Origin: Butyrivibrio sp.
GTDB taxonomy: Bacteria; Bacillota; Clostridia; Lachnospirales; Lachnospiraceae
DNA: 64,000 nucleotides
NCBI GenBank assembly: GCA_015056575.1
Contig: SVGA01000008.1
Coordinates: forward strand, 1-64,000
Direction: 5' to 3'
The notes beneath the pieces were generated by a model, which saw only the letters and a list, made by a program, of their open reading frames with translations, searched no databases and was not told the DNA's origin. Of the stretch, positions 12,078 to 14,585 are shown in pieces. Position 1 is the stretch's first letter. Each line of letters opens with the position of its first letter. A program made the translations under genes and the position numbers.

Positions 12078-12217
12078 ACGACGGCGTCATCTTTGTTTAA
12101 GACGTGAAAAAAGTCGCAGAAAATCGTAATTATGAATATTTGTACGTAAATTATGGTATAATAACCATGTATGAAATAGTACAATTCTACGGCATTGAAG
12201 GAAGGAAGGTCGCATCT

Positions 12218-13189
12218 ATGGCTACAAAAAATTTTGCAAAAGGCGAGATCATCTTTAAGGAAGGTGCAAACGGAGACAGCTTTTTTGATGTTCTCAAGGG
12301 AACTGTGGGAATTTTCATAAACTACGGTGAGGCCGATGAGCAGAAGCTTACAGAGGTTAAGGAAGGCGGTATCCTCGGTGAGATGGCTCTTATCGATGCT
12401 TTTCCCAGAAGTGCTACAGCAGTTGCTTTGGAAGACGTTGAAGCTGATGAAGTATCCGTTGACCAGGTAAAAGAGTATTTCAACTCCAATCCAAACAAGA
12501 TCGAGAGAATTCTCAATGTGCTCTGCCAGACACTGGCAAGACTTACAAACGATTATGTTGAAGTTTGTGATACTATCAAAAATCTTTATCCTGAAAGCGG
12601 AGAGAGAAAAGAGTCTCTTGCCGATAAGATCAAGAAGTTTGCTACATACTATAAGAGATTTAATAAGAACAATCAGCCCAGCGCAGAGTTCCTTCGCGAG
12701 ACAGGTCAGTCCGGACACAAGAACGGATATGCCAAGAAGGTTGAGTCCTACAGTGAAGGTACAGTTATCTTCAGAGAGGGCGAAGCCGGAAGATGCATGT
12801 ATGACATTCATGCCGGAAGTGTTGGTATTTATACCGGCTATGGCAAGCCTGAGGAGAAGCTCCTTACCAAACTTCATGTAGATACATTCTTTGGCGAGCT
12901 GGGAATGCTTGAGGATATGCCAAGAACAGCAACAGCAGTTGCCCTTGAGGACGGCACAACCGTTGAGAGCATCTATTCATCGGAATTTGCCGAGTTGTTC
13001 GAGAAGAATCCTGCCAAGATTGAGATGATCTTAAGACACCTGTCCTTCAGGATCAGAAGACTTACAGGTGAGTACGAGAATGCCTGCAAGATAATCAGTG
13101 ATGTAGCTGATGCAGAGGCTTCCGATGCCAATGTAAGCGATGAGATGAGACAGAAAGCAAGAGAGTTCAAGTCAAAATTATATGATTGA
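12218..13189 (+). CDS. Protein with two cyclic-nucleotide-binding (CNB) domains
   Basis: Two phosphate-binding-cassette motifs ILGEMALIDAFPRSATAVA and FFGELGMLEDMPRTATAVA; GGAAGG upstream of ATG 12218; TATAAT at 12157. Confidence 0.88.
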   Translation: MATKNFAKGEIIFKEGANGDSFFDVLKGTVGIFINYGEADEQKLTEVKEGGILGEMALIDAFPRSATAVALEDVEADEVSVDQVKEYFNSNPNKIERILNVLCQTLARLTNDYVEVCDTIKNLYPESGERKESLADKIKKFATYYKRFNKNNQPSAEFLRETGQSGHKNGYAKKVESYSEGTVIFREGEAGRCMYDIHAGSVGIYTGYGKPEEKLLTKLHVDTFFGELGMLEDMPRTATAVALEDGTTVESIYSSEFAELFEKNPAKIEMILRHLSFRIRRLTGEYENACKIISDVADAEASDANVSDEMRQKAREFKSKLYD

Positions 13190-14585
13190 TAATTCATCAG
13201 ATGTTTTTCAGAAGAATATAATGCTGAATATGTCCGAGGGTGTTATGACCATAAGCTTCGACGGTGTCGTAGCTTATGCTAACCCCTCGGCTCTTGTCAT
13301 ACTTGGCTTTACCGAGGATGAGCTTGTGGGCAAAAAGTTTGCCGGCTTATTCTTTGACCGTGAAGAGAATGATAAATTCTCCCAGGCCATACTGGATGCC
13401 ATATATGACAGGGAGCATCCCCATGATGCCATCGTGCCGTATACCAATGGAGACACTACAAGGCAACTTCGGGTTGTGACATCTTTTTTACAGGACAACG
13501 GTGAAAAGATAGGCATCATCGTAGTGTTCGGCGATCTTAGTGAGCTTATGGATCTTAGGGATGCGGTCAGATCCATGGAGAAGATCCGCGCCCTCAATGA
13601 ACAACTGAATATGAGAAATAAGCTCCTTAATGAGACCTTCGGTCGATTTTTGTCGGATGAGATAGTAAGGCAGCTTCTTGATACGCCGGATGGACTTAAT
13701 CTTGGGGGAAGCAAGAGAAAGCTCACTATCATGATGAGCGACTTAAGGGGATTCACCGCCATCAGCGAGAGGATGGATCCTGAGGAGCTTATCACCATGC
13801 TCAACCATTACCTGGGAGAGATGACAGAGATCATACAGCGCCATAACGGAACCATCATTGAATTTATGGGGGACGGTATATTTGCAATCTTCGGTGCTCC
13901 GGTAGCTTCCGATACTCACGCGGATGATGCGGTTGCTGCGGCCCTTGAGATGCAGGCTCGTATGGAACCCATAAATGCATGGAACAAGGAGCACGGTTAT
14001 ACCAATCTTCAGATGGGGATCGGCATAAATACAGGCGAAGTCATAGTGGGCAACATCGGCTCGGAAAGGCGCACCAAATACGGCGTTGTGGGCAGTGATG
14101 TTAACCTCTGCGGCAGGATCGAGAGCTATACCATAGACGGACAGGTCCTGATATCCCAGTCCACATTTGACGAAGCCAAGGCGGAAATAGTAATAGAAAA
14201 AGAAATTGTGGTCACTCCCAAAGGTGCATCCCAGCCTATGACCCTTAGAAGAGCAACAGGTATCGGAGAGCCTTACAATATCTATGTTCAGGACAAGGTA
14301 GAGGAAGCACCCAAGAAGCTTGATCGGATAATTCCCGTTACCTACTACAGGATAGAGGGTAAGCACAACCTTCAGAAGCCCTTCTTCGGGGGAATTGTGG
14401 CCCTTGCTCCGGATAAGGCGGTGCTGGATACTTCAGCGGAGCTTAAAGAGTATGACAACATTACAATAGATGTTGGAGAGAAACTTTACAGCAAGGTTAT
14501 AGAGAAGACGGAAGACGGCTTTCTTATCGGTTTTACCTCTGTTCCGGCAAGTTACAAGCACTGGCTTGAGGTCAATAAAAAATAA
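13182..14585 (+). CDS. PAS domain plus class III nucleotide cyclase
   Basis: PAS (NMSEGVMTISFDGVVAYANPSALVILGFTEDELVG); cyclase MSDLRGFTAISERM, IIEFMGDGIFAIFG, TKYGVVGSDVNLCGRIES; overlaps CNB gene by 8 nt. Confidence 0.9.
   Translation: MIDNSSDVFQKNIMLNMSEGVMTISFDGVVAYANPSALVILGFTEDELVGKKFAGLFFDREENDKFSQAILDAIYDREHPHDAIVPYTNGDTTRQLRVVTSFLQDNGEKIGIIVVFGDLSELMDLRDAVRSMEKIRALNEQLNMRNKLLNETFGRFLSDEIVRQLLDTPDGLNLGGSKRKLTIMMSDLRGFTAISERMDPEELITMLNHYLGEMTEIIQRHNGTIIEFMGDGIFAIFGAPVASDTHADDAVAAALEMQARMEPINAWNKEHGYTNLQMGIGINTGEVIVGNIGSERRTKYGVVGSDVNLCGRIESYTIDGQVLISQSTFDEAKAEIVIEKEIVVTPKGASQPMTLRRATGIGEPYNIYVQDKVEEAPKKLDRIIPVTYYRIEGKHNLQKPFFGGIVALAPDKAVLDTSAELKEYDNITIDVGEKLYSKVIEKTEDGFLIGFTSVPASYKHWLEVNKK

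Follow-up and report, generated by a model that had tools for sequence, protein, structure and literature searches.

Cyclic GMP has, to our knowledge, an established signalling role in a handful of bacteria only, namely cyanobacteria, Rhodospirillum, Xanthomonas and Sinorhizobium. We found no report of a cGMP pathway in Butyrivibrio or in Lachnospiraceae in the open-licence literature, in agreement with an earlier sequence-only reading of the locus described here, which had held that cGMP was not established in the family.

The nucleotide preference of class III cyclases can be followed at two purine-specifying positions. In guanylyl cyclases Glu replaces the Lys that reads adenine and the second site varies, the pair being Glu/Gly in Cya2 of Synechocystis (PMC4215837). 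The mutation E488K alone converts Cya2 to a specific adenylyl cyclase, wild type and mutant each turning over little of the other nucleotide, and both Cya2 and the fusion PagC show only minor conversion of ATP (PMC5995499). K101E/D157G gave the best guanylyl activity among the double mutants of Ma1120 (PMC4215837). The affinity of Cya2 was nevertheless reported to be similar for ATP and GTP, and a Tyr three residues past the Asn (N+3) aids its guanylyl activity (PMC4215837). On the receptor side, an Asn-Glu diad reads guanine in the cyclic nucleotide-binding (CNB) domain of XC_0249 (PMC3770947; PMC11224242), and the Thr-Thr motif of Clr binds cAMP as well as cGMP (PMC10127613).

Architecture and setting of the gene pair

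We analysed a 64,000-nucleotide stretch of DNA, the window, which contains a double-CNB gene followed by a class III cyclase gene (Table 1). The source organism is a rumen bacterium related to Butyrivibrio, and strain FCS014 has this pair at the corresponding position, its cyclase being 94% identical; in the FCS014 locus an IS30-like transposase frame is added downstream, and a further reading frame is inserted upstream.

Table 1 Features of the CNB-cyclase gene pair, in window coordinates.
Feature	Position	Strand	Remarks
Double CNB-domain protein, stand-alone, presumed receptor	12218..13189	+	323 aa; PF00027 twice
PAS - signalling helix - class III nucleotidyl cyclase - PilZ-like barrel, predicted guanylyl cyclase	13182..14585	+	467 aa
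PAS sensor domain	13215..13544	+	About residues 12-121; PF13426, PF00989, PF08448
Cyclase-transducing element ETFGRFLSDE (FGRY-type)	13635..13664	+	Aligned to NTFGRYLTDQ in the Cya2 part of 6fht
Codon of Glu227, at the first of the purine-specifying positions (adenylyl cyclases: Lys)	13860..13862	+	Alignment with Cya2, CyaB and CyaC
Codon of Gly301, at the second of the purine-specifying positions (adenylyl cyclases: Thr or Asp)	14082..14084	+	Alignment with Cya2, CyaB and CyaC
C-terminal PilZ-like beta barrel, without c-di-GMP motifs	14295..14582	+	Residues 372-467; AF2 pLDDT 86.6

The Pfam results show that the cyclase matches PF00211 (E 1.8e-29) and PAS_9 (E 1.8e-10), while the upstream protein matches PF00027 twice (E 1.7e-38), with domain A at about residues 1-115 and domain B at about 173-290. 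The two reading frames share 8 nt, up to the end of the CNB frame at 13189, which suggests that the genes are translationally coupled; a cyclase gene overlapping a double-CNB gene, as originally described, was thereby confirmed. The CNB frame is open already from a GTG at 12104, and the ATG at 12218 is the likely start because GGAAGGAAGG lies about 8 nt upstream of it. The pair is set amid housekeeping genes. From reading their sequences, we take the genes 5' of it to be rRNA methyltransferase-like and sigma-factor-like, and those 3' of it to be presumably an L31-type ribosomal protein gene and prmC-like and prfA-like genes.

Within its own genome the window cyclase is the only PF00211 match, class I and CYTH cyclases gave no match, and intact CNB cassettes were found in the window protein only. 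The other CNB proteins of this genome are two CRP/FNR-like proteins, which have a DNA-binding domain and no cassette, and one marginal match. A second CNB-only protein, of 169 aa, was also observed (L005:1285-1791, contig C29); its cassette is degenerate and the Arg is lost. Searches of the genome for PDEase_I and PDEase_II, for which the controls were weak or empty, returned nothing.

Kinship of the cyclase with Cya2

Alignment with Cya2, CyaB and CyaC places the metal-binding aspartates of the window cyclase at D187 and D231 and the transition-state N-x3-R pair at N308 and R312. At the two purine columns CyaB and CyaC have Lys/Thr (K/T), and Cya2 has Glu/Gly (E/G), like the window cyclase. 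All of these residues, including the Glu at codon 13860 and the Gly at codon 14082, fall where the sequence-only reading had put them. None of the 27 E/G sequences of the tree described below, Cya2 among them, departs from this pair, nor does any row of an 18-row alignment.

The nearest solved chains by sequence, 6fht and 2w01, are both Cya2, and the Lys found in 6fht at the first purine column is explained by the engineered E488K. Identity to Cya2 (2W01) is 50-52%, and 52% over the catalytic domain, with the purine columns aligned gap-free. The catalytic domain of the AlphaFold (AF2) model of the window cyclase, which was made from relatives, superimposes on 2w01 with a TM score of 0.94 and an rmsd of 1.8 Å. 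The same grouping emerged from a quick tree, computed without the two specificity columns on 89 catalytic domains that had been collected for their similarity to the window protein: one branch (SH-aLRT 97) sets off all Glu-type sequences, namely Glu/Gly, Glu/Asn and Cya2, from the K/T sequences, which belong to the same family and class. Lys occupies the first purine site in every K/T relative and in none of the 27 E/G sequences. These sequence comparisons support a placement of the window cyclase with the Cya2-type guanylyl cyclases, apart from the K/T cyclases of the family; the assignment of Glu/Gly to the guanylyl-cyclase state, proposed earlier, is thus backed by the alignment, the tree and the nearest solved relative.

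The Tyr at N+3, a feature of Cya2 and not a defining residue of guanylyl cyclases generally, is absent: the window cyclase and its clade have Gly there. We consider that the window cyclase likely prefers GTP, with strict specificity not assured, because Cya2 binds ATP and GTP similarly and the N+3 Tyr is Gly here; the similar affinities reported for Cya2 also make a mixed ATP/GTP activity possible.

Outside the catalytic core, the transducing element ETFGRFLSDE is nearly invariant among relatives. A fold search with the C-terminal barrel returned mostly PilZ domains among the best 25 PDB matches (E 2.7e-3 to 0.1), and the cyclase tail has no Pfam match to PilZ. The RxxxR and [DN]xSxxG motifs are absent from the window tail, and the family alignment contains no conserved RxxxR or Arg; binding of c-di-GMP is therefore not predicted, and we discarded it as a function of the tail. 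A regulatory or dimer role is more likely than c-di-GMP binding.

Linkage of CNB genes to the cyclases

A CNB gene is present in 20 of the 25 E/G loci, or in 20 of the 22 informative ones, since in three loci (L042, L054 and L118) the contig stops shortly before the cyclase gene on its upstream side, and these were left out; the other two (L041 and L052) have an E/G cyclase without a nearby CNB gene. The cyclase-CNB pair is thus conserved among relatives. With comparable flanks, the same linkage was seen in 0 of 8 Glu/Asn (E/N) loci and in 1 of 20 K/T loci, the latter count holding for that sample, as a later search with CNB proteins brought up another five K/T cyclases in the genus that have a CNB gene in their vicinity. 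The difference gives a Fisher p of 8e-6 against E/N and 2e-8 against K/T, values which refer to related loci and not to independent trials. The CNB gene is therefore a near-constant neighbour of the E/G cyclase and often the sole shared one, and in some relatives two or three single-CNB genes in tandem replace the one double-CNB gene. The invariance of the E/G pair in 27 sequences, together with this linkage, argues that the pair is not a product of chance.

Other neighbours were recorded as well. In five E/G loci (L039, L042, L047, L049 and L053) the gene immediately 5' of the cyclase encodes a xylose-isomerase-like TIM barrel (PF01261); in three of these loci it separates the CNB gene from the cyclase gene. 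In L042 and L052 the E/G cyclase adjoins genes for a GAF-ABC ATPase and an FtsX-like permease, with no CNB gene nearby (L042 being the locus cut upstream). Neither group was retained as a shared output gene, both being missing from the window, and ABC transporters, SpoIIE and others, which stand beside single loci, are not conserved in this position.

The CNB protein and its putative ligand

For the window protein Pfam gives no domains other than CNB; an output domain such as GGDEF, a DNA-binding part and an enzymatic part are all lacking. The phosphate cassettes Gly-Glu...Arg-[Ser/Thr]-Ala are intact in both domains, GEMALIDAFPRSATAVA and GELGMLEDMPRTATAVA. The Ser/Thr after the phosphate-binding Arg had initially been taken to favour cGMP. 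On the other hand, PRSATAV is also found in CNB proteins near K/T cyclases of the same genus (one of them reads PRSASAV), and the PRTATAVA of window domain B is PRSATAVA in the nearest relative, FCS014, with Ser in most relatives. We therefore dropped the motif as evidence for cGMP. As it is common to K/T-linked proteins and its Ser and Thr are exchanged between relatives, cyclase and receptor do not point independently to cGMP, contrary to what the sequence-only reading had proposed; of its guanylyl cyclase with a cGMP receptor, the cyclase half is supported and the half based on the receptor motif is not.

A difference between the two kinds of receptor lies elsewhere. At the position of Thr127 of CRP, in the base-contacting helix, Thr is present in the six K/T-linked domains, whereas of the 39 E/G-linked domains that could be read 36 have Leu, two Val and one Arg; this is one of 14 columns that separate the E/G-linked from the K/T-linked domains, the latter set coming from one genus. 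At the position of Ser128, Thr or Ser occurs in both groups, and the window protein has Thr, like receptors of the cAMP type. Where XC_0249 has its Asn-Glu diad, the aligned residues are Leu-Thr. Going by these alignments, the E/G-linked receptors are different from the presumed cAMP receptors at a base-contact site, a difference which does not by itself name the nucleotide; in Clr, moreover, Thr-Thr goes with binding of both cAMP and cGMP (PMC10127613).

Sister cyclases in the genus and family

CHASE2-containing K/T cyclases of the genus are also found with CNB proteins. In L170 and L172 they immediately follow an HD-CNB fusion gene, in L173 they adjoin a CNB-only gene, and in L137 and L171 such a gene is no more than a few genes away; in L174 a K/T cyclase lies about 11 kb from an HD-CNB gene. 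The fusions consist of an HD domain and a C-terminal CNB domain (L170:2249-4762, L172:8404-10881 and L174:2545-4986), and it is possible that these HD-CNB proteins serve as an output for cAMP. Two loci (L137:7013-11410 and L171:7441-12058) combine the CHASE2 K/T cyclase with genes for a metallo-beta-lactamase-fold protein, a FecR-domain protein and a CNB-only protein. One genome, G776, with a listed contamination of 4%, contains both an E/G cyclase with a double CNB protein (L115) and a K/T cyclase with its own CNB-only gene (L173), as expected if E/G and K/T enzymes use different nucleotides.

The E/N sister clade of Lachnospiraceae shows a conserved operon without a CNB gene (L055 and L057-L062, e.g. 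L061:3335-8836). Its genes, not all of which occur in each locus, encode a xylose-isomerase-like TIM barrel, a GAF-GGDEF protein, a TIR_2 protein, a receiver-like cyclase and a protein of about 340 aa without a Pfam match. In L056 the cyclase stands alone; the E/N cyclase of L016/L056 (L056:5519-8032) has about 840 aa, with about 300 extra residues past the barrel.

Discussion

The locus probably encodes a two-gene module in which a Cya2-type guanylyl cyclase is paired with a dedicated double-CNB receptor that binds cGMP. As a prediction from sequence, a guanylyl cyclase plus linked receptor is well supported, because the kinship with Cya2, the invariant Glu/Gly pair and the CNB gene in nearly all informative relatives agree with each other. 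The PAS domain would read a cytoplasmic signal, which the FGR-type transducing helix would relay to the catalytic dimer, and a soluble homodimeric Cya2-type core would convert GTP to cGMP. The co-translated double-CNB protein would then act as the dedicated receptor, with cGMP bound by either domain or by both. Since it lacks an output domain, it would have to work by contacting a partner, possibly the cyclase itself or another effector, much as the regulatory subunit of a kinase does.

A cyclase of adenylyl or dual specificity in spite of its Glu/Gly pair, with the CNB protein as an ordinary cAMP receptor, is an unlikely alternative, since the adenine-accepting Lys of every K/T relative never occurs among the E/G sequences, Cya2 and PagC convert ATP only slightly (PMC5995499), and the Thr at CRP position 127 is lost in the E/G-linked receptors. 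It draws on the comparable binding of ATP and GTP by Cya2, on the missing N+3 Tyr, on the Thr/Ser of cAMP receptors that the CNB domains keep at CRP position 128, and on the occurrence of the same cassette in CNB proteins beside K/T cyclases. It is also conceivable, if rather doubtful, that the cyclase makes cGMP while the CNB protein is mainly a feedback subunit of the cyclase and not the output of the pathway, which would be a sub-case of the two-gene module and does not exclude it. The lack of an output domain, the overlapping genes and a CNB gene that accompanies the cyclase in almost all cases, often as the only neighbour that the loci have in common, would suit this arrangement. The interaction of CNB protein and cyclase is purely putative, however, and the sister K/T systems include CNB domains that form fusions with an HD domain and hence with an output.

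The PycC and PycTIR models of PADLOC match the cyclase and the CNB domains, as they would in a Pycsar-like phage-defence pair with a cyclic pyrimidine product. Their scores are, however, those of generic class III and CNB domains, and the E/N cyclases are matched just as well by these PycC models. The window cyclase also has Glu/Gly, a pair of the purine type, where pyrimidine residues were reported for PycC (PMC11224242). Gene maps show no fused or adjacent TIR or membrane effector, and the flanks are housekeeping genes; we dropped this reading on its architecture and regard it as highly improbable.

Returning to the cGMP module, we put forward tentatively, as a wider possibility that we would not yet favour, that rumen Clostridia run two insulated purine channels on one plan, one for cAMP and one for cGMP, in which the specificities of cyclase and receptor changed together. 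The cAMP channel would consist of a CHASE2 Lys/Thr cyclase and a CNB-only or HD-CNB protein, and the cGMP channel of a PAS Glu/Gly cyclase and a stand-alone CNB protein acting on a partner as kinase regulatory subunits do. In this joint change the enzyme would have exchanged Lys for Glu, and the receptor Thr for Leu at CRP position 127. The window genome is a clean test case, its single class III cyclase and its single CNB protein with intact cassettes being encoded next to each other, and the contrast with the sister Lys/Thr modules of the genus would allow a direct test of how cyclase and receptor switch nucleotide together.

Comparison with known systems

Cya2 of Synechocystis (PDB 2W01; 6FHT for the fusion) resembles the window cyclase in the Glu/Gly pair, the metal aspartates, the Asn-Arg pair and the FGR[YF] element. 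It has CHASE2 and a membrane helix where the window cyclase has a PAS domain, and Tyr at N+3 where the latter has Gly; the linked CNB gene and the PilZ-like tail are on the window side, the tail of Cya2 lying outside the comparison.

In Xanthomonas campestris a class III guanylyl cyclase gene likewise adjoins the gene of a CNB receptor (XC_0250/XC_0249; PMC3770947). That cyclase has TPR repeats and its receptor is a CNB-GGDEF protein with the Asn-Glu diad, whereas the window receptor has two CNB domains, no output domain and Leu-Thr at the diad positions. GcyA/CgrA of Rhodospirillum centenum and Clr of Sinorhizobium meliloti provide further bacterial CNB receptors that respond to cGMP (PMC10127613); CgrA and Clr are CRP-family transcription factors with a DNA-binding domain, which the window protein does not have. 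Pycsar systems (PycC with PycTIR or PycTM) also encode a class III cyclase and a CNB receptor together, but the window pair differs from them in its purine-type residues and in having neither a toxic effector domain nor a defence context. The window pair is of a kind known from Xanthomonas and Rhodospirillum, and its combination of a PAS-cyclase-PilZ-like protein with stand-alone CNB proteins in Clostridia appears to be a new variant.
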